Assembly: GCA_963281255.1 (NCBI GenBank)
Contig: OY725488.1
Coordinates: 6,235,524-6,299,523 of the forward strand
From: Aphrocallistes beatrix
Taxonomy: Eukaryota > Porifera > Hexactinellida > Sceptrulophora > Aphrocallistidae
Direction of reading: 5' to 3'
DNA: 64,000 nt
The position numbers and the translations under genes are program-made. This document shows, in pieces, positions 1,489 to 63,760 of this stretch. Below the pieces are notes generated by a model, which ran no database searches, was not told the origin of the DNA, and was given only the letters and a program-made list of their open reading frames with translations. Each line of letters begins with the position of its first letter. Position 1 is the stretch's first letter.

Positions 1489-1639
1489 AAGTATATTAAA
1501 AATAAAATTGTTTTAATACACTTGGACAGTATAGATTCTCAATTCATTGCTGAGAGCGTTAAATTTAATACTTTGCCAATAATTCTACATTTGAAAATAC
1601 GAGTACCCGATATAAATGGTGTGCTGTATCCTCGTAATC

Positions 1640-2379
1640 CTTACTATTAAAACTCGATTAATATTTATTTGTGTACAATCAGGGTCGCTTATTGTGAACC
1701 ACCAGGGGACCAAAAAATCTGTTCATAATAGAAATACTTCATATTAAGCGAACTTGATTCAATACAAATCCTATCTAAAAATGAAATTGGAACCAGGAGG
1801 TTAGTTCATAATAAACGAATGTTCATATTAAGCGGGTTTATAATAAGCAACCCTGACTGTATATATATATATATATATATATATGTAACGAATTGATTGA
1901 AGAAACTGCCGGTCATAGAAAGCTGATTTTTGGCATGTGGGGGTCTTTTGGCTATGGCTCCAGTAAGTTCTGAGCTCAGAACAAAATGTCGACTCATCAT
2001 GGAATTATGACGTCATTGTCACATTGTTAAAAGTTAAGCAACAGAGTTATTCGAGCATAACTCAGCCATTATAGGAGATAGAAGGCTGAACTTTTAATAG
2101 AATCTGTATATTAATATACCTCACATATGACCCAACTATTTTCAAAAAATGATGACTCATCACTTTGTTATGACGTCATCATTACTCATCAAAATTTTGA
2201 AAATTGATAAATTTGGTGCTTTTTCGTGCGATATAGATTATAACAGTAGGACAGACGTATTTAGAGATGCTATCTCCCTTATAATTAACCAATGTCACCT
2301 CCAGGCGACCGAAGGGAGCCTCCGGCAGACACAAAGTGTCCGCCAGCCGCGCAGCGCAAGCAAGGGAAGCGCGCTTGTA
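1640..2379 (-). repeat. Repeat A, copy 1 (interrupted by a TA-flanked MITE)
   Basis: Reverse-oriented copy of repeat A. Read on the minus strand it has the GC-rich head with the GGACAC/GTGTCC hairpin (2287-2379), a core of about 400 bp with TGACGTCA at 2171-2178 and 2008-2015, the tail motif TTCTTCAATCAATTCG (about 1892-1907), a TA run (1861-1884) and the terminal segment ATCGAGTTTTAATAGTAAGG (1640-1659). The 1676-1859 MITE is inserted between TA run and terminus. No protein is encoded. Confidence 0.75.
1676..1859. mobile_element. TA-flanked MITE with inverted ends, pogo/Tigger type
   Basis: The ends are inverted repeats, CA(A/G)TCAGGGT(C/T)GCTTATT, flanked by TA on each side (1674-1675 and 1860-1861). 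The 184-bp interior has no ORF. TA duplication plus CAG-starting ends suits mobilisation by a Tc1/mariner-superfamily (pogo/Tigger-like) transposase. It sits inside repeat A copy 1 and is therefore younger than it. Confidence 0.7.
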
Positions 2380-3263: not shown

Positions 3264-4150
3264 ACAAGCGCGCTTCGCTTGCTTGCGCTGCACGGCTGGC
3301 GGACACTTTGTGTCCGCCTCAGGGTTGGGTTTTGTCCTGTCCAAAACTGGTTTTGGACGGACAGTGGGAAAAACCCCGGTTTTTACCGGTCAATAGTGGT
3401 CAATACTATATCCTTGGATAATATGAAACTGAAAACGTATAAAATATGTTAAGATATCTTATTTTGAGTTTGTAATATGCTATTGACACTTGTTTACAAT
3501 GAAACAGTAAAGTGATAAAATGTGTGTTTTCAAACAATTAAATTCTAATAAAGTATACGTATATGTATATGTTCCTTCTACAGGAATATTATTATCGAAA
3601 GCATTTGTGATATTATTTAAGTTGAATACTCGCAGATTGTTTATCTTACTTGAATTGACCAATTTGAAATGGCACAAGGAGGAAGGCCCATTGATTCAGT
3701 GTGGAAATTTTTTCTTTCAACATATATTCTTCAACAATTATGTATTCAGCATATTATATTCATCTTATTTAAATATACAAGTAAGAAATAAAATGCATTC
3801 GTACAATAATTAGGTTTTGACCAGTTTTGACCGGTTTTGTTCAATCAGGAGGTTTTGGACAGGACGGTTTTTACCACATGGACAAAACCTGCCAACCCTG
3901 GTCCTCCGGAGGCTCCCTTCGGGCGCTTGGGGTCACATTGATTAATTATAAGGGAGATACATCTCTAAATACGTCTACCTACTGTTATAATCGATAGCGT
4001 ACGAGAAATTACCAAATTTGTCAATTTTTAAAATATTGACGCGTAATGATGACGTCATAACAAAGTGATGAGTCATCATTTTTTGATGATAGTTGCATCA
4101 TCTGTGAGATATATTAATATACACATATTATTAAAATTTCAGCCTTCATT
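3264..4150 (+). repeat. Repeat A, copy 2 (split by a hAT-like insertion, tail lost)
   Basis: The GC-rich head runs 3264-3319 and resumes at about 3902 with CCGGAGGCTCCCTTCGG, followed by part of the core (TGACGTCA at 4050-4057) up to about 4150. The 582-bp insertion 3320-3901 breaks it exactly at the head hairpin. Confidence 0.7.
3320..3901. mobile_element. hAT-like non-autonomous element inserted in repeat A
   Basis: The left end CAGGGTTGGGTTTTGTCC and right end GGACAAAACCTGCCAACCCTG-type sequence form an imperfect inverted repeat, with further inner inverted matches (TGTCCAAAACTGG against the TTTTGGACAGGA side). Flanks look like an imperfect short duplication (TCCGCCT / TCCTCCG) whose exact length I cannot fix. 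The interior has no convincing ORF. Confidence 0.55.
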
Positions 4151-27641: not shown

Positions 27642-28430
27642 AACAAGCGCGCTTCGCTTGCTTTCTCCGAGCGGCTTACGGGCACTTCGTGTCCGCAGAG
27701 TCGCCCTACGGGCGCCTGGAGTTACTCAATCTAGCGTATTGTGGGAATTTGTTTACTTTATACTTGTATAAATATTGTAAACAAAAGTAAACAAATATTT
27801 TATCATATTGATCTGAAATTATGATATTCGAACTCTACACCCCCTGAAAACCCAATGTCAACCGTTGGAAGCCAGTTCCTAGCCCTTTTTTGTAATTTGT
27901 TTACTTTATGTATTTAATGTAAACAAAAGTAAACAATAATTTATCATATTGATTCGATACCCTCAAAAACTCATGTCAACTGTTCAACCGTTGACAATTT
28001 GCACGTCTGCGGTAACTTGAAGTACTCAGTCTAATAGCCTCTAAATATATTTGTTAGTATGAAATACGAGGAGTAACACAATTTATGAGTAGTACATAAA
28101 TACAATACTCGAACCCCGTACGAGCATGTACACCACAATATTTCCCATGCAAATAGTTATAATTCTTATATATTTATGAGGTAATTAACTTTGAAGGAGA
28201 GTATTTAAGATGATAGCTTACTATAAGGTGAATAATTTGAATGTATAGTATTGTTAGAAAAGGTGTGAAAAATTGTTTTCTATTTTTTGCATAGGTGCGA
28301 AAATTCCGCTTAGATTTTCGAACTTAATCGTATATTCATCATTCGACACCTACATGCCAATTTTCGTATCTCTACGACTTGCCAATTCTTCAATCAATTC
28401 GGACAAACAAACAAAAATCATAGCATTCTA
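27642..28430 (+). repeat. Repeat B, full copy with two inner tandem monomers
   Basis: Head 27642-27735 (same GC-rich module as repeat A, with GGGCACTTCGTGTCC and a second stem), then two monomers of about 125-130 bp (about 27748-28010) containing TTGTTTACTTT and AAAGTAAACAA, then a unique stretch, then the tail with ACCTACATGCCAATTTTCG, TTCTTCAATCAATTCG and (ACAA)n at 28300-28420. No coding content. It starts 48 bp beyond the aconitase start codon and may overlap that gene's promoter. Confidence 0.65.
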
Positions 28431-28441
28431 ATACTTTATAT

Positions 28442-28548
28442 AAGATTATATAATTATTATACAATTATTATATAATTATTATACAATTATTATATAATTA
28501 TTATATAATTATTATATAATTATTATACAATTATTATATAATTATTAA
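28442..28548. repeat. ATAATTATT microsatellite
   Basis: About a dozen near-perfect (TATAATTAT/TACAATTAT) units. A similar run at 59805-59900 also adjoins a repeat B element, so the microsatellite appears linked to that family. Confidence 0.8.
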
Positions 28549-28651
28549 AACCCTGGAACGACTTTGGGGTCAAAGGTATAAATAGAAATGATTCATTTTC
28601 AATTAACTTTCACTTTCACTTCAACATTCCGAGTCCAAGTAGGGCTAAATA

Positions 28652-29830
28652 ATAACCGCGGTTCGCTTACTTGCGCTGCGGGGGTTGCGGACACTTTGTG
28701 TCCGCAGAGTCGCCTTGCGGGCGCCTGGAATTACTCAATCCAGCCTATTTTGTTAATTTATATAAACAAGCGCGCTTCGCGCTTGCTTGCGCTGCGCGAC
28801 TGGCGGACACTTCGTGTCCGCCGGAGGCTCCCTTCGGTCGCCTGGAGTCACATTGGTTAATTATAAGGGAGATAACATCTCTAAATATGTCTGTTCTCTG
28901 TGCTAATCGATATCACTCGAAAAATCACCAAATTTGTCAATTTTAAAATTTTTGATGCGTAATGATGACGTCATAACAAAGTGATGAGTCATCATTTTTT
29001 GATGAAAGTCGCATCATATGTGAGGTATGTTAGTATACAGATTCTATTAAAATTTCAGCCTTCTATCTCCTATAATGGCTGAGTTATGCCCGAATAACTG
29101 TGTTGCTTAACTTTTAAAAATGTGACAATGACGTCATAATTCCATGATGAGTCGACATTTTGCTCTGAACTCAGAACTTACTGGAGCCATAGCCAAAATA
29201 CTCCCACATGCCAAAAATTAGCTTTCTATGACCGACAGTTTCTTCAATCAATTCGTTACAGATATATATATATATACACACACAATAATCGAGTTTTAAT
29301 AGTAAGGATAGTACGTATTTTAAACAAAGGTTAACAAATAATTCATATCGATCAGAAAATATAATATCCGAATTCTACTACACCCTAAACCCTATGTCAA
29401 CCGTTGGAAGCTAGTCATTACCATATTTTTATATTTTGTTTACTTTATGTATCTATTGCAAACAAATGATTTATCATATCGATCTGAAAATATAAATTCG
29501 AATTCTACACCCATAAAAACCATATGTCAACAGTTGGAAGCTAGTCTCTAGCATATTTTTGTAATTTGTTTACTTTATGTACTATTGTAAACAAAAGTAA
29601 ACAAATAGTTTATCATATAGACCTGAAAATATGATATTCGAAATCTACACCCCGAAAACCCCCATGTCAACCGTTGAGAGTAAGTTTCTAGCTTATAATT
29701 AGAAGAGGTGTAAAAATTTCGCTTAAATCTTAGAACTTAATCGTAGTCATATCATTTGGCACCTGCATGCCAATTTTCATATTCCTACGACTTGCCAATT
29801 CTTCAATCAATTCGGACACACAAAAATATA
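28652..29830 (+). repeat. Repeat B, second copy, split by an inserted repeat A
   Basis: Head 28652-28765 (GCGGACACTTTGTGTCCGC hairpin), interrupted by a complete repeat A (28766-29308), then three tandem monomers with CATGTCAACCGTTGGAAGC ends (about 29312-29695) and the tail with TTCTTCAATCAATTCG (29700-29830). Removing the A insert restores the order seen in the copy at 27642. Confidence 0.65.
28766..29308 (+). repeat. Repeat A, complete copy nested in repeat B
   Basis: 543 bp from ACAAGCGCGCTTCG to TTTTAATAGTAAGG. Contains head hairpin, core with TGACGTCA at 28966-28973 and 29129-29136, tail TTCTTCAATCAATTCG and a TA/CA run. Because it interrupts a B element, both ends can be read directly. 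The core holds two diverged direct copies of a module ATGACGTCATAA-n8-TGATGAGTC, about 163 bp apart. Confidence 0.7.
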
Positions 29831-30437
29831 TATAAGATTTGAATGGAAATATTGAGTAGTATGAATACTTTTGGTAGGGGAGTGTGTAAGGAAAACAGCA
29901 AAAAGTCGTGTTCAGTGTAATAATCAACACACCAAGTCACGAGTAAACTGAGAATTGGGAGTGAAGAGGTATCATCACAAAAACATTTTGCACTCAAGCT
30001 CAGTGACTCAGTTGGTGTACTGAAACCAACTTTAACAATAATAAGTCTTCTAATTAGTATGTAATCTATCATGCATCATAGAATTCAAGTTCGCTCCATG
30101 GAATTGTGAACCATATGTGAAGGGTCATTCATTAACAAGAATCAGGCGGCGGGTACGAAACAGGATAGTCAGGACTTCTCATTGTTTATGAGAAATCCTA
30201 ACATTAAAATTTATACTATAAATTTAGGACTTTTTAATGATAACATTCAAACGAGTATATACATACGTACGTATATGCTGTATAATAGTGTTGAGTACTT
30301 TCGTCTCGAGATATGAATACAATCTCACTCAACAAGGGTAGGTTCTAAACTCGCCATAGTACTCTACCATGCATGGCATGAAAGTTGCTGCCGTTTAGCA
30401 TAAAATTCTATTTTATGCCTGTAATTGTAATACTTAC
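29831..30437. other. Gene-free stretch before the GTPase-like gene
   Basis: No ORF with recognisable content. A pyrimidine tract and TTTATAG just before 30454 could be a splice acceptor, so a short upstream exon of the GTPase-like gene could lie in this stretch. Confidence 0.3.
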
Positions 30438-45917: not shown

Positions 45918-46474
45918 GGGGCGCCTGCATTTGTCAGAATCTTGAAGATGTTATTTGTCAGAATTTCCATCACTGGCATTAGTCAGAATGGTTTTTATCG
46001 AATTTTGACTTTGTCAGAATAGTTTTTATTGAGTTCTGACTTTGTCAGAATGGTTTTTATCGAATTCTGCACTTGTTAGAATGAGATTTTTAGAGTTCTG
46101 CACTTGTTAGAATGGAATTTCTAGAATTCTACTAAATGCCACTCAATCACCCCGTCACGAAATTAAAATGCCACTTTCACATTCAAATGGACATTATTTC
46201 GAACATAAAATGCCCCTTTTCACACCTTTCTTTTACATATTACTCTCGAAAATGCTCACTTTCGCTCTCCCATTCATTCTGAAAGAAACAAAATGCCACT
46301 CAACCACACTCCCACGAAACTAGAGTAGAACCTGACTCCCATTCTAACAAAGACAGAACTCAATAAAAACTATTCTGACAAAGTCAGAACTCAATAAAAA
46401 CTATTCTGACTAACGCCAGTAATGGAAATTCTGACAAATGACAACTTCAAAATTCTGACAAGTGCAGCGGCCCC
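45918..46474. mobile_element. Foldback element with about 150-bp inverted ends and 8-bp duplication
   Basis: Starts GGGGCGCCTGCATTTGTC, ends with the inverted GACAAGTGCAGCGGCCCC, and is flanked by GAATTCAG on both sides (45910-45917 and 46475-46482). Each arm holds about four subrepeats of about 30 bp, GTCAGAATGGTTTTTATCG type. The centre (46130-46320) has AAATGCCACT repeats. The 8-bp duplication suggests hAT mobilisation. Confidence 0.8.
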
Positions 46475-52274: not shown

Positions 52275-52553
52275 CTACTTGAGAAGTACTCAGGTCTGTG
52301 ATACCAAATTAATAATCACTATTTCATGTTAAGATAGTGTACTACGTATGCTTACGTATAATTAAGAATCCCTCAGTCTCAATAACTGAACAATATTAAA
52401 CAACTCGAAGAACCAGCAGACTTCACAACATATTCATTATGTACTCGGATATAATGAAATGGAAAAAGTTAAATAAATAAATATATTAACAACTAAAATG
52501 CACTATGGACATGTATGCATGTTCCAAAACTAGATCTGAAACTGTCAGTAGAA
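52275..52553. other. Spacer between EXOG and the first DUF4139 gene
   Basis: AT-rich; identity with the second DUF4139 copy begins near 52535. Confidence 0.4.
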
Positions 52554-54455
52554 CTAACTGATAGGATACTCAATGGCATAGTTGAGAGTGAATTTACGCT
52601 CACAGTTAGCTGACACTTCCAGACACCACTCAAGATGGTTCTTTTCATTCAGCATCACACTCCCGCCTTCTCCGCCACCTTTCATGAACACCTTCACGCC
52701 CACCTTCTTGCACGCTGACGGATGTATCAGATGCACCTTGATACGCTCGTCCTGACTCACAGGAACACTCTCCACTACCTTCACATTGATTCGCTTACCC
52801 TTCCTGTTCTTCACAGTTGTCGTCTTGTGGTAGTCCTGACTCGTCGTGCCTTTTGAAATCCAGCCAGGTTGGTGAGACTGGAAACTCTCTCCCCCCTTAA
52901 ACTTCACTCGGACGAGCGGGTCCACACCCAGGGAACACCTCACCTCCTCTCCAGGTGACACACTCTCCAGTCTCGACTTCGAGATAAAGTCGTTATCCAC
53001 GAACACAGAACTGGGACCACTCATCAGTGGGTAGTCACTGGTGTTGGTCGCCTTCGCTATCAGGTACACATTCCCGCTCTCTTCTGGGAGACACAGATGC
53101 TCGAAGACGGACTCCAGGTCGATCACAGTCACAGACACCTTGTGCTCCGTGTTGTCAGACGGGATGGTAACGGGTTGAGACACGTCAAACGTCTGAACGA
53201 ACAATCCAGTCTTCACCTCACTCTGACTCTCCTCCACTAGCTGCATTGGGGGCATCATTTGTGGTGCACTACTCATAACACGAGACTTTCGCGATGAGTG
53301 CGAATAGGATTGCATTGAATCAAAGCCAATCGTAGGCATATAATTATCATAGACTGGAGGAGGAGGATAGTATCGATATATGTTGTGAGGAGTGAGTACA
53401 GGAGGAGAGCCTCCTTTGCTGGGAGAGGCTGTGGAGAGAGAAATGGGAGTGTTCACCCAGTCCTCTCCAGTCGATTGACTCACCTGACCGAAGTAATGCA
53501 CCTGGACAATGCTGTCCTCAATCGAGACACGCAGGTGGTACAGAGAACTCCAGCTGGCTCGACTCACCAGGTAGCTCAGCAACACCTCCACACTCTCAGC
53601 ACCATCTGACTCCAGCACGATCTGAACAGCACGTGTGAATTCATCTCCTCCCCCTTTCACCTTACCCTTCTTCTCAGTCAACTCTCCACTCTTCACGGCA
53701 TTCAGTCGAATCGTCTCCAGTTTCGTGTTCACACAATCCAGCTGCTCCTGCAGAGAGTCACCTCGATTCTCCAGCTCTTTACTGCGAGAACAGAAATACT
53801 CCACAAAATCCACGATGGAGTTCAGGTGTTGACGGTCGGTGGCTAGCTTCAGTCGCTTCAATGCCTCCTCACAACTCTGTGCTCCCCCGTCCACCAACAC
53901 TGCCTTCAGTTTAGACAACAGTGTCAATTCCTTCTTCAACACACCTCTCTTCTTCTCCAGGATTGCTTTCTCATGTGACAACTGTTCTCTCTCAGATACA
54001 TTCACACTCACTGTCTCTGCTACCGCTGAGTTCTTCTCATCTCCTCCTCCCGTCTCTTCCAATCTGTACTGAGACACGTACACCACATCAGTGATGGTAG
54101 CCGTGCCCTCCTTCTTCCCCTTCAACTCCACTCGGACAGAATCAGGATCCATCACTTCTGGGAAGTCCACAATCGTCACTGTGTTCTCGCCTCCTGATAG
54201 TTTGCATGCTACTTCTCGTCTCACCTCTGCTTGATCAGTGTACACCACCACACGAGAGAACGGACACTCACTTAACTTCTTCACTTCTTCCCTTCTCTCT
54301 TGCTTTGAATCACCAGTATTCTTCCCCAGACTTACTTCGTCAAGAACCCCGACTAACGTAGCCATATTTTACAAATATAACTACAAGTCACATAAAATAT
54401 AAAACAATCGACACGTACTATGATTCAGAAGAAAAACATACGAAATTTTCATTGT
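52535..54455. repeat. Left arm of a 1.9-kb inverted duplication
   Basis: Near-identical in reverse to about 60070-61992. Includes the whole DUF4139 gene, about 90 bp of 5' flank and about 20 bp of 3' flank. Similarity stops abruptly at GTTTCAGAT and at AATGAAAATTTCG. Confidence 0.85.
52554..54365 (-). CDS. DUF4140/DUF4139-family protein, copy 1
   Basis: 603-aa single-exon protein of the family seen in C. elegans F37C4.5 and in bacterial and fungal 'mucoidy inhibitor A'-like proteins; its biochemical role is unknown. Layout: short charged N-terminus; DUF4140 (about 33-105, CPFSRVVVYTDQAEVRREV); coiled coil (about 120-215); DUF4139 (about 240-603), with ASWSSLYHLRVSIEDSIVQVHYFGQVSQSTGEDW as the characteristic beta segment. 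It lacks a signal peptide or TM segment. A near-identical gene in opposite orientation is at 60152-61966; the two differ mainly in residues about 333-366. Confidence 0.8.
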   Translation of the reverse strand: MATLVGVLDEVSLGKNTGDSKQERREEVKKLSECPFSRVVVYTDQAEVRREVACKLSGGENTVTIVDFPEVMDPDSVRVELKGKKEGTATITDVVYVSQYRLEETGGGDEKNSAVAETVSVNVSEREQLSHEKAILEKKRGVLKKELTLLSKLKAVLVDGGAQSCEEALKRLKLATDRQHLNSIVDFVEYFCSRSKELENRGDSLQEQLDCVNTKLETIRLNAVKSGELTEKKGKVKGGGDEFTRAVQIVLESDGAESVEVLLSYLVSRASWSSLYHLRVSIEDSIVQVHYFGQVSQSTGEDWVNTPISLSTASPSKGGSPPVLTPHNIYRYYPPPPVYDNYMPTIGFDSMQSYSHSSRKSRVMSSAPQMMPPMQLVEESQSEVKTGLFVQTFDVSQPVTIPSDNTEHKVSVTVIDLESVFEHLCLPEESGNVYLIAKATNTSDYPLMSGPSSVFVDNDFISKSRLESVSPGEEVRCSLGVDPLVRVKFKGGESFQSHQPGWISKGTTSQDYHKTTTVKNRKGKRINVKVVESVPVSQDERIKVHLIHPSACKKVGVKVFMKGGGEGGSVMLNEKNHLEWCLEVSANCERKFTLNYAIEYPIS

Positions 54456-54639
54456 TTTTAGTTTGTCGACTATACTTTGTACATATAGTGTTCTGCTTTG
54501 AAATTACCAGGCTAACAAGGCTAACTTTTGAGCTGAGGCTATCAATTATGAGTACATAATTAGAATGTGTAGTTTACGAATTTGAAATAAAAAATAGAGT
54601 ATTCCTTACAGTTTGAGAACATATTCCTTTATGAATAGA

Positions 54640-54721: not shown

Positions 54722-56130
54722 TCAATCGATCTGGCCCATAGTATTACAGAGTTCCGTCTTAACATATGCCAGAGCAGAATTGGCCCTCTCCACAGAAGCA
54801 GATGTGACTGGAGCTACCAGTAGAAGGTGCAGAATGCACGAAATATTGGGATAGAGGTGGTTGTTAGTAGCACGATAGGTGTTGGACAAAGTTTGAGGTA
54901 GGCTTTCATTGACCTTCCATCGCATGATCCACCTCTCCACTTCTTGCTGAAAGGAGTCCGCAGCTGGGAGATCATTAGAAAAGGCCTCCTTCAGTTCAGT
55001 AATAGTGCTTGTAGGAACTCCATTTACTGCGTTTTCTGGTAAAAGACAGAGACCTGATATTGCAGTAGTGGAAAACTGGTTAAAGCGAGAATTCAGCTCA
55101 CTCACTAAATGGTCAGTAAAGGGGATGCAAACAGAACGGCGCCAAAACTCTTCTGGGGTGGTTGGAGCGATTAATTTGGAAAGTACAGCGGTGAGGAACA
55201 GTTATTTGTTCCCCACTTAGCTCACTTGTTATATTGGCTTCTTGGAAAATTGTGCTGAATCGTGCTTCTTCATCAGTTCATGCTGCGTAATGCAGGAAAT
55301 TGTACTAGAAATATCATCATCAGCAGAGAGAATATCTTTACTGGTTCCTTGCAGTTGTTTGGCAATATCCTTTGTAAATCCGAAGAAGTACCGACAAATG
55401 TAAAATGATATCAATAATTCAGATGAACAGAGTCTTTCAACAACCCAGAAGCTTCCGTGGTGCTCTTTGCATCCCATTTTACCTGATTTTCAGTCGCACA
55501 ATGAGGTGAATGGGATATCTCAGTAAGGCACATAACTAAAGACTCATAAAGATGGTGGAAATCTTCTATTGTTGTGTGTCGCTCCACCCAGCGAGTCTCA
55601 GAGAAGTTTGAACTTCTTTTTGGGGACAATTTGCTATGTTTTTGCCTTTCCTCATTCACATGCTTCACACTGGATTCCAGTTTACGCTGACATTTGGGGA
55701 TATTTGAAGAACACTCCAAGCTTTCAGTGATGAAATCATTCGATGAATTTCTGGGACATTGCATGCCTTGGATATGGCAAGATTAAGCTGATGGCTACTA
55801 CAATGATAGTATACAGTCTGGGACTTCTGCCTTCAGACGTGCTTGGCAACATTTCAAAACCCCAGCCATTGCACCGGCACCATCATGCCCCTGCCCACGA
55901 CACAGTTTAATGTTGAGACCGCAATTTGCGATGAAGGCCTTAATCTCACGAATGATGTCTTCCCCACTTACGCTTTCACATAATACAAAGCCAACCAATT
56001 TCTCAACAGCCTCTCCATCCTTTACGTATCGGAACACTATTCCAAGTTGTTCCCAGTTCGAAACATCAGTTACTTAATTATTAATCCACAGAAACTGAGA
56101 AAAACTTGCTCATTTTAACGTCGTGCAACA
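54722..56130 (-). pseudogene. Broken hAT transposase (ZMYM1/TTF-type family)
   Basis: Four reading-frame pieces on one strand, in the order of a hAT transposase: DVSNWEQLGIVFRYVKDGE..CRGQGHDGAGAMAGV (56110-55798), an FSETRWVERHTTIEDFHHLYESL piece (55764-55411), a linker piece (55477-55229), and the C-terminal dimerisation domain PVTSASVERANSALAYVKT (55105-54722). Stops and frameshifts separate them, e.g. a TAA within the DVSN region at about 56073. Not a functional gene. It lies in the loop between the inverted DUF4139 arms. Confidence 0.75.
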
Positions 56131-56670: not shown

Positions 56671-56672
<2 letters not shown>

Positions 56673-57190
56673 AAGCGCGCTTCGCTTGCTTGCGCTGCGC
56701 GACTAGCGGGCACTTTGTGTCCCGCGAGGCGCCCTGCGGGCGCATGAGGTCACATTGATTAATTATAAGGGAGATAACATCTCTAAATACATCTGTCGTA
56801 CAATTATAATCAATATCGCACGAAAAATCACCAAATTTGTCAATTTTTAAAATTTTGATGGGTAATGATGACGTCATAACAGTGACGAGTCATCATTTTT
56901 TATTATAGGTGTATCATATGTGAGATAGATTAATATGCACATTATATTAAAGTTTCAGCCTTTTATTAATAATTATAATATCTCTTAAAATGGCTGAGTA
57001 ATGGTCGAAAAACTGAAATTTCTAATAATAAAAAAGGTGACAATGACGTCATAATTCCATGATGAGTAGACATTTTGGTCTGAGCTCAGAACTTAGTTGA
57101 GCCATAGCCAAAAGACTCCCACATGCCAAAAATCAGCTGTACCTAGCAGTTTCTTCAATCAATTCGTTACAGATATATATATATAGATAT
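56671..57190 (+). repeat. Repeat A, copy
   Basis: Head from ACAAGCGCGCTTCG, core with TGACGTCA at 56869-56876 and 57044-57051, tail TTCTTCAATCAATTCG and TA run. Directly followed by another copy in the same orientation. Confidence 0.75.
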
Positions 57191-57194
57191 ATAT

Positions 57195-57711
57195 ACAAGC
57201 GCGCTTCGCTTGCTTGCGCTGCGCGGCTGGAGGACACTTCGTGTCCGCCGGAGGCTCCCTTCGATCGCCTGGAGGTAACATTGGTTAATTATAAGGGAGA
57301 TATCATCTCTAAATATGTCCATCTTAGTTTTAAATCGATATCACTCGAAAAAATACCAAATTTGTCAATTTTTAAAATTTTGATGAGTAATGATGACGTC
57401 ATAGCAAAGTGATGAGTCATCATTTTTTGATGATAGTTGCCTCATATGGGAGACGTGTTAGTATACAGATTCTATTAAAATTTCAGCCTTCTATCTCCTA
57501 TAATGGCTGAGTTATGCCCGAATAACTGTGTTGCTTAACTTTTAAAAATGTGACAATGACGTCATAATTCCATGATGAATCGACATTTTGCTCTGAGCTC
57601 AGAACTTACTGGAGCCATAGCCAAAAGACTCCCACATGCCAAAAATCAGCTTTCTGTGCCTGGCAGTTTCTTCAATCAATTCGTAACAGATATATATAGA
57701 TATATATACAT
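57195..57711 (+). repeat. Repeat A, copy, head to tail with the previous one
   Basis: Full head, core (TGACGTCA at 57394-57401 and 57557-57564) and tail. The TA run at its end is the target of the Tc1-like MITE at 57713. Confidence 0.75.
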
Positions 57712-57712
57712 A

Positions 57713-58173
57713 CACTGCCTGAACAAAAGTATTCGTACACCCCATAATTCTCCATACGAATAGTTATAATACTGATTTATTTAGCGAGTCAAGGTATTTA
57801 ATTGGTAAGAGATACGCTTAATTTAACTTCAAATTCGAATTACTCACTTTTTAATCTTTCAACTTGTTTACACTCTCACAAGGTTAAAATTTTTCAAACT
57901 GTGCCACCTCATACCACCAATGCCATCATATACAATGGTGATCACTCGCGACATGTGGCATAGGAAAGCAAATGCTGAAAATACTTAATCTTGAAGAAGA
58001 GTAATTAAGTTGAAAACTTATAAAGTGGGTAATTTGAATGTGGAGAATTCGAATTTGAAGTCAAATTAAGTGTATCTCTTACCAATTAAATACCTTGACT
58101 CGCTAAATAAATCAGTATTATAACTATTTGTATGGGGAATTATGGGGTGTACGAATACTTTTGTCCAGGCAGG
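57713..58173. mobile_element. Tc1-like MITE with long inverted ends
   Basis: 461 bp, ends CACTGCCTGAACAAAAGTATTCG-type, inverted at the right (CGAATACTTTTGTCCAGGCAG), flanked by TA on both sides (57711-57712 and 58174-58175). The arms extend about 130 bp (through CGAGTCAAGGTATTTAATTGG). The interior has no transposase frame. Confidence 0.75.
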
Positions 58174-58180
58174 TATATAT

Positions 58181-58280
58181 ATACAAGCGCGCTTCGCTTG
58201 CTTGCGCTGCGCGGCTGGCGGACACTTTGTGTCCGCCGGAGGCTTCCTTCGGTCGCCTGGGGTAACATTGATTAATTATG
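58181..58280 (+). repeat. Repeat A head, truncated
   Basis: Head with GGCGGACACTTTGTGTCCGC and GGTAACATTGATTAATTAT, then cut off by the CGCATGCG-rich tract. Confidence 0.7.
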
Positions 58281-58505
58281 CGTATGCACAATGGACTTAA
58301 TCCAACCAATCGTGCGCAATGTGCAATTAACCATGCGCAATGTGTCAATTGATAATGCGCAGTGTGACGATTACGCATGCGCAATGGACTTTCTAATACC
58401 TCTGAAGGATTTATTACATATATTAAATACGTTCATCCGCATGCGGATAAGGTTCATCCGCATGCGGATAAGGCTTATCCGCATGCGGGTATCGCATGCG
58501 GAAAC
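58281..58505. repeat. GCGCAATG and palindromic 21-bp tandem repeats
   Basis: First part (58281-58390): four spaced copies of a (C/T)GCGCA(A/G)TG motif with similar flanks. Second part (58431-58493): three 21-bp units GTTCATCCGCATGCGGATAAG, each built on the perfect 14-bp palindrome ATCCGCATGCGGAT, followed by GCATGCGGAAAC. The apparent frame here translates to an Ile-Arg-Met repeat and is not a gene. Confidence 0.75.
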
Positions 58506-59035
58506 AAATAATTACTAAATTATATCCTTTTAATATATGTGGTATTCTACAGGTATTCATGACTTAGATCTCTTTTCGCACCAAGGAAATGGTTGTAAAT
58601 TTAGCAATTAAATATACTGGTTCTCTTTCTGCAATCACCTATCTCATTAACTATCCACAAGGCTACACATTCTGTAACAAAATATATATGATCATCAGGG
58701 TCGCCGCAATAAGGTTTCCTGGGTGTCCGAACACCCACTGCCTCAAAGGCAGGACATGATGCGGTGCTTGGATACCTAGGTTAGTTTACTGTAATCAAGG
58801 TTAACTGATAATGCATAGTATTTGTGTGTCCAGACACACACTAAGTTAGTCGGTGACCGCACATTATAATACATAAAGAATTGATTTGAAAGTCTCAAAG
58901 ATGGACAATTTTGAATGGGTAAATAAATATTAAAATAAAGCACTGTAGAGACGGATGTAATCTTATTCTGTCAATTAAATTGTATTTTTTTCGGTAACAT
59001 CATTTTGGCAACCAATGGAATTAGTGGAATCTATC
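58506..59035. other. Gene-free stretch
   Basis: No supported gene. GGTGTCCGAACACCCA (58721-58736) and CCTCAAAGGC.. are small inverted repeats only. Confidence 0.4.
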
Positions 59036-59806
59036 TTATATATTAAAACTAGGATTATTTTTTGTTTTTGTTTGTTTGTTTGTCCGAATTGATTGAAGAA
59101 TTGGCAAGTCGTAGAGCTACGAAAATTGGCATGTAGGTGTCAAATGATGAATCTAGGATTAAGTTCGAAGATCTAAGCGAAATGTTCGCACCTCGCTGAG
59201 ATAGGTGACAAAATGTGCTGACCAATCAAATTCGATTATTTTATAATGCAAATACATTGGAATAAAATGTTAGTGACTTATGCATACAATCAAAAGGACT
59301 ATTTGTGATTGAAATTCATTGGTTTATGTGAGAACCAATCAATTATCAGCCTTTTATAATGCCATTTACACGATTCTATTTCATATAAATGATTGAATAC
59401 TGCTATTTTGAGTCTATAATTTGATTGTTAATAACAATTAAAGTGTGTTATATGCTACGATCAATCAATTCGGTCATAAAATAACTTTTAACGACATGGA
59501 CTGGAATTGATTATTTAAGTATAATAATATTTAGCAATGTGAACTTTGTGTATTCAAATTGAGCTTACATTCAGGATTAGTTGACTTAATACGAAGTAAA
59601 TTATATTCAGCACGAAACAAAATTTGTGCTACAGTTCTGATTTCATAAATGTAACCGTAGACAAATGACAATCTAGCGTACTTAGTATAAAACAGGAAAG
59701 CGACGTATTGTTTCTCTAATATCCGCAAGCGCCCACTAGGGAAATCTGCAGACACGTAGTGTCTGCAAGCCGCGCAGTGCAAGCAAGAGAAGCGCGCTTG
59801 AATAAT
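59036..59806 (-). repeat. Repeat B-like element with a different interior
   Basis: Minus orientation: head 59727-59806 (GCAGACACTACGTGTCTGC hairpin) and tail 59036-59200 (CATGCCAATTTTCGTAG, TTCTTCAATCAATTCG, (ACAA)n, TAGTTTTAATA). The roughly 530 bp between them match neither the A core nor the B monomers. Confidence 0.55.
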
Positions 59807-59900
59807 TATGTAATAATTATATAATAATTATATAATTATTATATAATTATTATATAATTATTATATAATTATTATATAATTATTATATAATTATTATAAA
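59805..59900. repeat. ATAATTATT microsatellite
   Basis: Tandem TATAATTATT units adjoining the head of the repeat B-like element. Confidence 0.8.
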
Positions 59901-60069
59901 ATAATTGTTGCAGTGTAAATTCGAAACTGGTGGATTCGCGAATATCCCTGCACCTGAAATATAATGTGATACTGATTGCAATAATGGCATTAATGATCAT
60001 ATATGCGGTAGCTAAATATTTATGTGGGCGGTGGAGCTGAAACATGTTTCCAACTAACAGAAAAATGAA

Positions 60070-61992
60070 AATTTCGTATGTTTTTCTTCTGAATCATAGT
60101 ACGTGTCGATTGTTTTATATTTTATGTGACTTGTAGTTATATTTGTAAAATATGGCTACGTTAGTCGGGGTTCTTGATGAAGTAAGTCTGGGGAAGAATA
60201 CTGGTGATTCAAAGCAGGAGAGAAGGGAAGAAGTGAAGAAGTTAAGTGAGTGTCCGTTCTCTCGTGTGGTGGTGTACACTGATCAAGCAGAGGTGAGACG
60301 AGAAGTGGCATGCAAACTATCAGGAGGCGAGAACACAGTGACGATTGTGGACTTCCCAGAAGTGATGGATCCTGATTCTGTCCGAGTGGAGTTGAAGGGG
60401 AAGAAGGAGGGCACGGCTACCATCACTGATGTGGTGTACGTGTCTCAGTACAGATTGGAAGAGACGGGAGGAGGAGATGAGAAGAACTCAGCGGTAGCAG
60501 AGACAGTGAGTGTGAATGTATCTGAGAGAGAACAGTTGTCACATGAGAAAGCAATCCTGGAGAAGAAGAGAGGTGTGTTGAAGAAGGAATTGACACTGTT
60601 GTCTAAACTGAAGGCAGTGTTGGTGGACGGGGGAGCACAGAGTTGTGAGGAGGCATTGAAGCGACTGAAGCTAGCCACCGACCGTCAACACCTGAACTCC
60701 ATCGTGGATTTTGTGGAGTATTTCTGTTCTCGCAGTGAAGAGCTGGAGAATCGAGGTGACTCTCTGCAGGAGCAGCTGGATTGTGTGAATACGAAACTGG
60801 AGACGATTCGACTGAATGCCGTGAAGAGTGGAGAGTTGACTGAGAAGAAGGGTAAGGTGAAAGGGGGAGGAGATGAATTCACACGTGCTGTTCAGATCGT
60901 GCTGGAGTCAGATGGTGCTGAGAGTGTGGAGGTGTTGCTGAGCTACCTGGTGAGTCGAGCCAGCTGGAGTTCTCTGTACCACCTGCGTGTCTCGATTGAG
61001 GACAGCATTGTCCAGGTGCATTACTTCGGTCAGGTGAGTCAATCGACTGGAGAGGACTGGGTGAACACTCCCATTTCTCTCTCCACAGCCTCTCCCAGCA
61101 AAGGAGGCTCTCCTCCTGTACTCACTCCTCACAACATATATCGATACTATCCTCCTGCTCCAGTCTTTCCTGGCGAATATATGCCTACGATGTTCTATGG
61201 TGAATCAATGGAATTCTCTTCTCGCTCATCGCGAAAGTCTCGTGTTATGAGTAGTGCACAAATGATGCCTCCAATGCAGCTAGTGGAGGAGAGTCAGAGT
61301 GAGGTGAAGACTGGATTGTTCGTTCAGACGTTTGACGTGTCTCGACCCGTTACCATCCCGTCTGACAACACGGAGCACAAGGTGTCTGTGACTGTGATCG
61401 ACCTGGAGTCCGTCTTCGAGCATCTGTGTCTCCCAGAAGAGAGCGGAAATGTGTACCTGATAGCGAAGGCGACCAACACCAGTGACTACCCACTGATGAG
61501 TGGTCCCAGTTCTGTGTTCGTGGATAACGACTTTATCTCGAAGTCGAGACTGGAGAGTGTGTCACCTGGAGAGGAGGTGAGGTGTTCCCTGGGTGTGGAC
61601 CCGCTTGTCCGAGTGAAGTTTAAGGGGGGAGAGAGTTTCCAGTCTCACCAACCTGGCTGGATCTCAAAAGGCACGACGAGTCAGGACTACCACAAGACGA
61701 CAACTGTGAAGAACAGGAAGGGTAAGCGAATCAATGTGAAGGTAGTGGAGAGTGTTCCTGTGAGTCAGGACGAGCGTATCAAGGTGCATCTGATACATCC
61801 GTCAGGGTGCAAGAAGGTGGGCGTGAAGGTGTTCATGAAAGGTGGCGGAGAAGGCGGGAGTGTGATGCTGAATGAGAAGAACCATCTTGAGTGGTGTCTG
61901 GAAGTGTCAGCTAACTGTGAGCGTAAATTCACTCTCATCTACACCATTGAGTATCCTATCAGTTAGTTCTACTGACAGTTTCAGATTCAGTT
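60070..61992. repeat. Right arm of the inverted duplication
   Basis: Mirror of 52535-54455. Includes the second DUF4139 gene and its immediate flanks. Confidence 0.85.
60152..61966 (+). CDS. DUF4140/DUF4139-family protein, copy 2
   Basis: 604 aa, intact, nearly identical to copy 1 (52554-54365) with the same domain order. The outside differences I see are few: Lys to Glu in SRSEELENR, Gln to Arg in the RPVTIPS segment, Ala to Gly in HPSGCKK, and two near the C-terminus (LIYTIEY). The segment about 333-366 differs in most residues (PPAPVFPGEYMPTMFYGESM against PPPPVYDNYMPTIGFDSM). The 90-bp 5' flank is shared, so both copies may have the same core promoter but different upstream DNA. Confidence 0.8.
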   Translation: MATLVGVLDEVSLGKNTGDSKQERREEVKKLSECPFSRVVVYTDQAEVRREVACKLSGGENTVTIVDFPEVMDPDSVRVELKGKKEGTATITDVVYVSQYRLEETGGGDEKNSAVAETVSVNVSEREQLSHEKAILEKKRGVLKKELTLLSKLKAVLVDGGAQSCEEALKRLKLATDRQHLNSIVDFVEYFCSRSEELENRGDSLQEQLDCVNTKLETIRLNAVKSGELTEKKGKVKGGGDEFTRAVQIVLESDGAESVEVLLSYLVSRASWSSLYHLRVSIEDSIVQVHYFGQVSQSTGEDWVNTPISLSTASPSKGGSPPVLTPHNIYRYYPPAPVFPGEYMPTMFYGESMEFSSRSSRKSRVMSSAQMMPPMQLVEESQSEVKTGLFVQTFDVSRPVTIPSDNTEHKVSVTVIDLESVFEHLCLPEESGNVYLIAKATNTSDYPLMSGPSSVFVDNDFISKSRLESVSPGEEVRCSLGVDPLVRVKFKGGESFQSHQPGWISKGTTSQDYHKTTTVKNRKGKRINVKVVESVPVSQDERIKVHLIHPSGCKKVGVKVFMKGGGEGGSVMLNEKNHLEWCLEVSANCERKFTLIYTIEYPIS

Positions 61993-62304
61993 TAGAAACT
62001 CAGCGGATTCTTAGGAGTATATAATCAGATTATTTTATTTTCGTTGTAATTGAGTATTCTGAGAGTTTGGTGTTCTTTACTGATTTTTAGTGCTGCTCTT
62101 GTAGGGAGAGGCCATTATTGCATGGACGGAGTATCTCATCCATCCGTATGTATGTATGCATGTTTGTATGTCTGTATGTTCGTACGCGTGCGACTGCGAA
62201 ATCTAACAGTCCGATTTTCACCAAATTTCGAATGTAGGATCTCTTTATTTTGTAGGTGTTACCGTCAATATTTTTTAAAAAACGTCCTTTGATCACTTCC
62301 GGTT
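61993..62304. other. Gene-free stretch with a worn repeat
   Basis: A (TGTATG)n run at 62144-62180 precedes ATCTAACAGTCCGATTTTC and AAATTTCG, a style of sequence found near repeat ends in many invertebrates. No gene. Confidence 0.4.
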
Positions 62305-62930
62305 TCTACCCTTACTATTGAAACTCGATTCATGTTTGTGTGTGTATATATTTATATCTCTGCAACGAATTGATTGAAGAAACTACGAGACACTAAAGCT
62401 GATTTTTGGAATGTGAAAGTCTTTTGGTTATGGCTCCATAGTCTAGTCAAACTATGGTTTGAGTTGGAACAAATTGCAACAGAATTTATTTCAATGGCAA
62501 ATTAACGAGGGAAGGTACATACGTAACAAAATAAAAATTCCAAAAAATCCCTTCGGTGGAACATCCCTAAAATGCCACTTTAAGTTCCACATTCGGACAC
62601 ATTTTGAGATGTTAAAATGCATATAACTTCTCCAGTTTTAAACTACATATATCAATTTGTATAGCGATATTCATAATCAGACCAAAATGTCGACTCATCA
62701 TGGAATTAAATTTCAGTTCTTAGACTATAACTCAGCCATTTTAGGTGATAGAAGGCTGAAATTTTAATAGAATGTGTATATTAATATATCTCAAATATGA
62801 TGCAACTTTCAACAAAAATGATCACACATCACTCTGACATGACGTCATCATTACGCAACAAAAATTTTTTGATTTTTCGTGCGATACCGATTATAACAGT
62901 AGGACAGACGTTTTTTAATTTGACGAGTTC
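62305..62930 (-). repeat. Repeat A, headless copy
   Basis: Minus orientation: terminus TCGAGTTTCAATAGTAAGG (62309-62328), TA run, tail motif (62363-62380), foreign or diverged middle, core from about 62680 with TGACGTCA at 62840-62847; truncated before the GC-rich head. Confidence 0.6.
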
Positions 62931-63039: not shown

Positions 63040-63760
63040 GTGCAGGATGCGCCAATTATATTCTCCATACCTGCTTCAGCTGCAATTGTGGAAAGTACTT
63101 TGGAATTTGAGTGGCAAGTTCAGGAAAAGGAAATCCCAAAGCATAATGAAATGGTAGATGCTTCTGTTTTGGCTCATTGGTGCTGGGTATCGAAAACTTT
63201 CACTTTATCACTCTATGCTAAACCTTCCGCCTCCTGGCAGTTTACAGATGCGCAGAATGGCATAATCCTGGTCACCGAAATGATCGCAAAACAATCGATG
63301 GAACGTGCGAGAGACGGAGTCGACTCTTTCATACTACTGATTTGACAAGCCCCTATGTCGAGACTTGTTCTTACGATGGGGCGTATCAGATGCGTTCAGG
63401 GAAGATGGGGGCAGGATTCAGTCGGTACTGCTTTGCCTCTCCGTACACACAGCAAAGGTCGTTGCTTATGGTATCACTTGCAACTCCTGCAAACTTTGTG
63501 TTGATCATCAGAACATCTAGAGAGCAGGAAGTATCTCTCATGAAGAGTACGAGACTTGGTATTCCAACCACGAGGCTCAGTGCTCTGCGAAGTACAGTGA
63601 GTATGCATCAGTCCAGTTGGAGTCCGCTCCTGCTCTTGCTATGGTTACTCAAGCTTTGGATCGCGGATTAGTGTTCTCTGGCATCGTCACCGATGGGGAT
63701 AACAAGACCCACGAAGTCTTACGTCAGGCGAACCTATATCAAGATTATCAAGATTGATTA
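63040..63760 (+). pseudogene. Broken Mutator-like (MULE) transposase
   Basis: Frame pieces in the order of a MULE DDE domain: AGYRKLSLYHSMLNLPPPG (from about 63178), GIILVTEMIAKQSMERA, then DGAYQMRSGKMGAGFSRY (from about 63377; the DG..K...G strand), AKVVAYGITCNSCKLC, W..H..QCSAKYS..SVQLESAPALAMV and FSGIVTDGDNKTHEVLRQA (ending about 63730), the part around the second catalytic Asp. At least two frame changes and an in-frame TAG (about 63525) break it. Not functional. The third catalytic acid lies beyond the recognised part. Confidence 0.65.

Follow-up and report, generated by a model that had tools for sequence, protein, structure and literature searches.

Modular repeats with exchangeable interiors in the hexactinellid sponge Aphrocallistes beatrix: probable non-autonomous Helitron-type elements with a variant 3′ end

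RESULTS

The locus and its repeat elements

The window analyzed in this work, a 64-kb stretch of an Aphrocallistes beatrix contig, carries Pfam matches that mark it as animal DNA, among them laminin domains, RPGRIP1-type, COG3, CSN7, Nuf2, aconitase, and tubulin-tyrosine ligase. A DUF4139/DUF4140 gene is present as an inverted duplication (52521-54456 and 60061-61999; 98-99% identity), the two copies flanking a cluster of the elements described below. Fragments at 54725-55201 and 63521-63754 match the hAT dimerisation domain (E 5e-06) and, below the cut-off, a Mutator-like transposase (E 1.2e-04); to judge by these matches, they appear to be other decayed transposons. A 31-bp repeat array (GTCAGAATGGTTTTTATCGAATTCTGACTTT) at 45979-46474 faces an inverted copy of itself 285 bp off.

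The window further contains ten repeat elements, here named E1-E9 and E5p, in which the order of two end modules, termed head and tail, is constant in both orientations. A preliminary description of this DNA had proposed nine GC-rich heads and eight tails. All nine heads were located, with hairpin cores at 2325, 3301, 27680, 28689, 28805, 56708, 57232, 58220, and 59748, and far above chance: a search with the head core at up to three mismatches returned 13 matches (four of them second hits to near-palindromes already matched on the opposite strand), against a mean of 0.12 in dinucleotide shuffles. The eight tails are all exact copies of TTCTTCAATCAATTCG, which has 10 matches in the window at up to three mismatches, above the shuffle level (mean 1.40, maximum 6). 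The gapped pattern CATGCCAA-N(20-30)-TTCTTCAATCAATTC occurs at seven places in the window and at none in the shuffles; the tail of E9 does not fit it. Searched for separately within the 64 kb, heads and tails are mostly found together, with 7 of 9 heads and 7 of 8 tails paired within one element; E2 and E7 lack a tail, and E9 lacks a head. The interval 27642-29830, earlier described as modular repeats, is indeed made of repeats, which we now resolve as two copies with interior B and a copy with interior A nested in the second. The elements are as follows (a stroke within a sequence marks the element boundary, 5′ terminus first):

E1: 1638..2377, plus strand; interior A, both ends present; a mariner-like MITE flanked by TA interrupts it at 1676-1859; termini CTCGTAA/TCCTTACTATTAAAACTCG at 1638 and CGCGCTTG/TAAAG at 2377
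E2: 3265..4147, minus strand; interior A, 3′ end and half of the body present, 5′ half lost (by BLAST)
E3: 27644..28445, minus strand; interior B (~130-bp monomers), both ends kept, holds Tc1-like MITE sequence; termini ATATAA/TCTTATATAAAG and CGCGCTTG/TTTTTATT
E4: 28653..29837, minus strand; interior B, with both ends present and E5 dividing it; termini CATTCAAA/TCTTATATAT and CCGCGGTTA/TTATTT
E5: 28767..29308, minus strand; interior A, both ends kept, within E4; termini GTACTA/TCCTTACTATTAAAAC and CGCGCTTG/TTTATATAAA
E5, 3′ terminal hairpin region (an example of a head): 28766..28849, minus strand; fold z = -4.00
E5p: 56672..57189, minus strand; interior A, more diverged, 5′ side stops in (TA)n (by BLAST)
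E6: 57196..57706, minus strand; interior A, 5′ side stops in (TA)n; head-to-tail neighbor of E5p
E7: 58184..58279, minus strand; family 3′ end followed by a different interior; shares 97 bp with E6 and E1 at 93.8% identity
E8: 59034..59800, plus strand; interior C, both ends kept; termini GAATCTA/TCTTATATATTAAAACTAG and CGCGCTTG/AATAAT
E9: 62309..62915, plus strand; interior A; 5′ end present, with CC in place of TC, and 3′ end lost (BLAST fragments)

The fragments of E9 lie at 62310-62438, 62677-62708, and 62714-62915, with other sequence at ~62439-62676. A candidate 5′ end of E7 near 58541 is a weak match (72.5% over 40 columns, E = 2.4).

Polarity and termini

The repeats had been suggested to be a non-autonomous family moved by its ends, as Helitron-type or other end-recognised elements are. 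The 5′ terminus, the A/T target, the paired ends, and an empty site support this, but the polarity has to be reversed: the elements read on the strand opposite to that of the first reading, the “tail” being the 5′ end and the “head” the 3′ end. TAGTTTTAATA, which had been taken for an optional extra of the tail, actually belongs to the degenerate 5′ terminus. In all six copies that keep this terminus the preceding base is A; five of them begin with TC and E9 with CC: A/TCTTATATATTAAAACTAG in E8, A/TCTTATATAAAG in E3, A/TCTTATATATAT in E4, A/TCCTTACTATTAAAACTCG in both E5 and E1, and A/CCCTTACTATTGAAACTCG in E9. The first 60 bp of the element hold TCCTTACTATTAAAAC or TCTTATATATTAAAAC with a CGAATTGATTGAAGAA motif. 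At the other end, the terminus is CTTG in eight of nine copies and the next base T in eight of nine: seven copies end in AAGCGCGCTTG/T, E8 in CTTG/A, and E4 in CCGCGGTTA/T (GTTA/T). The canonical Helitron 3′ terminus, CTRR, was thus not found among these nine ends. The insertion site is A/T in four of the five copies with both flanks readable and A/A in E8. Given the base composition of the window (A 29.7%, T 28.5%), an A preceding all six 5′ ends and a T following eight of the nine 3′ ends are unlikely to be due to chance; since the boundaries were set with the Helitron rule in mind, we attach no formal probability to these flanking bases.

The 20 nt flanking the elements contain 12-20 A+T at the nine 3′ flanks and 10-19 at the six 5′ flanks, and several copies adjoin an 11-bp AT array, (TA)n, or (TAT)n. 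One 11-bp AT-rich array (TTATATAATTA) is shared by E3, directly on its 5′ side (28436-28547), and E8, directly on its 3′ side (59801-59906). As the preliminary description had stated, there is no clear terminal inverted repeat: in E3, E4, E5, and E8 perfect terminal inverted repeats measure 0-1 bp, and a search for target duplications in the same four copies found flank repeats of 1-2 bp at most. On both counts the class of transposons and MITEs with terminal inverted repeats was rejected.

Hairpins of the 3′ end

The 3′-end alignment comprises eight of the nine heads; E2 was omitted, as a MITE interrupts its hairpin region. Paired cells make up 91.2% for the GGACAC/GTGTCC stem, 69.6% for the outer GC-rich stem, 93.8% for the terminal CAAGCG/CGCTTG stem, and 89.1% for an alternative terminal stem. 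Against controls in which the stems were slid, pairing of the 3′ stems reaches 81.5%, 89.1%, and 93.8% of cells versus at most 44%, 64%, and 60%. Their covariation is not above that of a column shuffle, being reached by 206, 500, and 62 of 500 shuffles, and structural constraint on the stems is hence not proven by this measure. Folded as single-stranded DNA, six of the eight heads are better than most shuffles (z -1.89 to -4.44), while E1 (z -0.52; 52/200) and E6 (z -0.64; 48/200) are equalled by about a quarter of theirs. An RNAalifold consensus that joined the two edges of the region by long-range pairing was not adopted, its covariation term being positive, i.e., unfavorable. Selection for the 3′ hairpins is nevertheless likely. 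The terminal palindrome reaches the last bases of the element, whereas the textbook Helitron hairpin lies 10-12 nt upstream. It is conceivable, if rather doubtful, that the elements represent a distinct animal Helitron lineage, with two to three compact GC-rich hairpins, of which the last holds the cut site, and with CTTG being its normal terminus and not a bypass product. A terminator of this strength would account for the 3′ ~55-80 bp being alike across A, B, and C despite their swapped interiors.

Exchangeable interiors and later insertions

When the elements were compared with each other by BLAST, the A body was recovered in six copies (E1, E2, E5, E5p, E6, and E9), with identities of 92% for E5-E6, 92% for E5-E1, and 82% for E5-E5p. 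The B body, with its ~130-bp tandem monomers, is present in E3 and E4, and the C body in E8. B (E3) and C agree over 123 bp of the 5′ region (94%) and at the 3′ end (79% over 76 columns); between these shared ends BLAST reported no match. The view that unrelated interiors lie between shared ends therefore stands for A, B, and C, which are unrelated by BLAST outside the ends, but some of the variety that it was meant to cover is due to later insertions. Besides the mariner-like MITE between TA and TA in E1, E2 has a MITE nested in its 3′ hairpin region at 3320-3900, with termini CAGGGTTGG and CCAACCCTG, which we take from these termini to be hAT-like; its flanks, GTCCGCCT and GTCCTCCG, are alike at six of eight bases. 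Diverged pieces of Tc1-like MITE sequence are found at ~28128-28252 in the B copy E3. A further MITE at 57714-58173, in the linker between E6 and E7, has 141-nt inverted repeats (92%), is inserted at TA, and resembles the pieces in E3; its termini are those of what is presumably a Tc1-like element. The interior of E7 at 58290-58500 contains short tandem repeats of 21-bp GTTCATCCGCATGCGGATAAG and 22-bp TGCGCAATGTGCAATTAACAA type and is possibly a fourth interior. The reported absence of coding capacity is borne out: the longest stop-to-stop ORF within an element (element ends +/-30 bp; E1 from 1840 only) has 100 aa and lies in a nested MITE, and ORFs that overlap an element but extend beyond its end reach up to 114 aa.

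The A body carries TGACGTCA, which we assume to be a CRE-like site, at 2008, 2171, 4050, 28966, 29129, 56869, 57044, 57394, 57557, and 62840. There are two such sites in each of E1, E5, E5p, and E6 and one in each of E2 and E9, together 10 of the 15 in the window. The motif TGASTCA is present in four of the six A copies.

The 5′ side of the elements has (TG)n(TA)n or (GTTT)n, and in E1, E5, and E9 the tail runs on beyond the microsatellite to the fixed terminus. E1 itself had seemed to stop in (TA)n next to one end of its mariner-like MITE. If E1 is a Helitron copy hit at TA by a MITE, its terminus is expected beyond the MITE, and TCCTTACTATTAAAACTCG was found there without mismatch at 1638-1656, preceded by A.

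SINE families, too, show a common head, a common tail, and exchangeable middles. The repeats might accordingly be read as SINE-like retroposons, with a common promoter head and a LINE-derived tail closing in a microsatellite, and the microsatellite that follows the tail in A copies fits such an arrangement. However, the tails of E1, E5, and E9 pass the microsatellite to reach a fixed terminus; target duplications were not found in E3, E4, E5, and E8, nor is one evident at the empty site; and neither a tRNA gene (ARAGORN, bacterial settings) nor an Rfam match at gathering score was found. We regard this origin as extremely improbable.

Greater, though still small, weight may be given to the HINE/Helentron type (Helitron2), i.e., to non-autonomous partners of endonuclease-bearing Helentrons like DINE-1, oyster Cg_HINE, and Pearl. 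Oyster Cg_HINE has modular ends, satellite-like central repeats, and microsatellites (PMC7492417), to which the ~130-bp B monomers and the 5′-side (TG)n(TA)n or (GTTT)n would correspond here. Yet the 12-15 bp subterminal inverted repeats of this type are missing: when the 5′ 100 nt of E3, E4, E5, and E8 were compared with their 3′ 120 nt, the longest exact inverted match was 6-8 nt, and as long a match turned up in 34 to 258 out of 300 single-base shuffles. Moreover, the target is A/T in four of five copies (A/A in E8), not TT, and the 5′ terminus is TC in five of six. In all, we hold this reading to be improbable.

A nested insertion with its own empty site

The A copy E5 (28767-29308) sits inside the B copy E4 (28653-29837), and E4 minus E5 aligns with E3 and with other B monomers. 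The examination of empty sites that the preliminary description had called for could thus be made within the window: sister B sequence provides a paralogous empty site without visible target duplication. Across the join, E4 minus E5 scores 130 against E3, where 300 random right flanks do not exceed 89, and against three B monomers 68 versus 31, 94 versus 36, and 48 versus 34 (random maxima). The join was also shifted by up to 12 bases added or removed, which changes the score little, and the plain join is not the top-scoring one: against E3, removal of seven bases gives 137 versus 130, and for the three monomers plain join and best shift score 68 versus 71, 94 versus 97, and 48 versus 50. Since small shifts score alike or higher, a gain or loss of a few bases at the E5 join is possible and the cut is not fixed to the base; a sizeable gain or loss is excluded by the alignment.

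The head-to-tail array

Three family members, E5p, E6, and E7, lie head to tail at 56672-58279 with (TA)n linkers. E5p and E6 are only 81-82% alike and so do not stem from a recent duplication. In both, the 5′ end is short of its outermost ~40 bp, for which the Helitron model gives no simple explanation. A displaced 5′ terminus of the kind seen in E1 would be expected for E6 and E5p as well, and BLAST with the 5′ end did not find one. Formation of the array by nested insertion into (TA)n was considered and rejected: under it, the 5′ pieces missing from E5p and E6 should lie upstream of E7, where BLAST found none. Alternative A/TC starts may possibly lie inside the (TA)n of E5p and E6, going by the sequence.

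This array, along with the tandem monomers of B, is what would be expected if the repeats were a dispersed satellite or tandem repeat family that had been spread by recombination and not by transposition. Against this, the elements occur as single copies with fixed ends, unrelated flanks, and both orientations, and in one case A has inserted into B; such an origin is scarcely credible.

DISCUSSION

Several marks of Helitrons come together in these repeats: ends of one polarity, A/T sites, GC-rich 3′ hairpins, different interiors, and an A-into-B insertion without visible change of the target. On this sequence evidence, they are very probably non-autonomous Helitron-type rolling-circle transposons. 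As the strict CTRR terminus is wanting, we file them as Helitron-type elements with a variant 3′ end and not as textbook Helitron1. Under the Helitron model, an autonomous partner elsewhere in the genome would supply the RepHel protein, which would nick at the 5′ TC and peel off one strand; peeling would halt at the 3′ hairpins, the strand would be cut after CTTG, and a single-stranded or circular intermediate would be joined into an AT target. In such a scheme only the ends are recognized by the protein, and for this reason interiors as different as the A core, the satellite-like monomers of B, and C could all be carried. No Pfam match to RepHel was present among the 29 distinct larger ORFs of the window that were scanned, and neither an autonomous element nor a second locus elsewhere was seen in the searches made.

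Whether all copies count as one family depends on the rule that is applied, because the 3′ and 5′ rules group them differently. The classical rule, as given in PMC6544945, asks for 80% identity over the 3′ 30 bp and treats different interiors as exemplars, and a modified rule of the same source uses 80% over the 5′ 30 bp. Over the last 30 bp, E1 is at least 80% identical to all eight other heads, and 34 of 36 pairs reach 80%, the exceptions (E3-E4, 70%; E4-E8, 77%) both involving E4. Over the first 30 bp, the six preserved 5′ ends give 15 pairs, of which only 5 reach 80%; E1, E5, E9, and E8 form a chain, while E3 and E4 are 70% identical to one another and 57-73% to the rest. Under the 5′ 30-bp rule, then, B falls outside the family of A.

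Lep1 is reportedly a non-autonomous canonical Helitron of insects. Such insect elements resemble ours in several respects: Hel1 (PMC6544945) and Hel-2 (PMC4344730) likewise have a 5′-TC, A/T insertion without duplication, and a 3′ hairpin; they are often a few hundred bp long; Hel1 likewise has different interiors between common ends (PMC6544945); and in Hel-2 a microsatellite likewise follows the 5′ subterminal repeat (PMC4344730). By description, they differ in ending in CTRR, where our elements have CTTG and several GC-rich hairpins with the last abutting the end.

Helraiser/Helibat1 (PMC4778049) likewise starts with TC, inserts at A/T in AT-rich targets, and has a 3′ hairpin terminator; its AT-rich target preference is strongest on the 3′ side. 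The mechanism proposed there follows the same course as above, from a 5′ TC nick through helicase peeling and a hairpin pause to a cut after the 3′ tetranucleotide and the joining of a circle into AT. Unlike our elements, Helraiser has a normal 3′ end of CTAG, a single 19-bp palindrome 11 nt upstream, and a known autonomous consensus. CTTG/T ends are, however, described in some Helraiser insertions in which the normal 3′ end had been altered, and also in maize Helitrons (PMC4778049). The same text reports a Helitron of Myotis inserted right beside another, which may be compared with the array at 56.7-58.3 kb.

Outside the canonical Helitrons, Cg_HINE/Pearl and DINE-1 (PMC7492417, PMC4067079) likewise show modular ends, satellite-like repeats, microsatellites, and duplication-free empty sites, but these elements have subterminal inverted repeats of their own and TT or T-rich targets, neither of which is seen here. 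FoHeli/Helitron2 of Fusarium (PMC5148889) likewise has hairpin-bearing non-CTRR ends, with one copy lying 2 bp from part of another; it differs in having asymmetric terminal inverted repeats, none of which were found in our elements, and FoHeli1/2 have hairpins at both ends.

Searches for relatives were made more widely. Six short end motifs searched for in paper texts led to five papers, none of which concerns transposons to judge by its title. In IMG/VR, the head core GGACACTTYGTGTCCGC was present at 4 loci and the tail 16-mer at 97; these 101 loci were rejected as relatives and taken as chance, since BLAST of the ten element regions gave no alignment longer than 37 columns bar one, of 114 columns at 75%, which covers the AT-rich 11-bp array beside E3 and not an element. 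The more specific gapped end patterns had no occurrence in GTDB genomes or in IMG/VR, and E5 had no match in the phage collection.

The family is probably undescribed, even as the kind of element is ordinary and already known, its 3′ end being somewhat unusual. The case shows how a nested insertion, by providing an empty site of its own, allows an unnamed modular repeat to be resolved within 64 kb. The satellite-like monomers of B add a further case of Helitrons carrying tandem repeats, and the putative sites in the A body could be a means by which CREB/AP-1 type binding sites are spread. Finally, if CTTG within a terminal hairpin is the regular 3′ end, tools that rely on CTRR and an upstream hairpin would miss the family.
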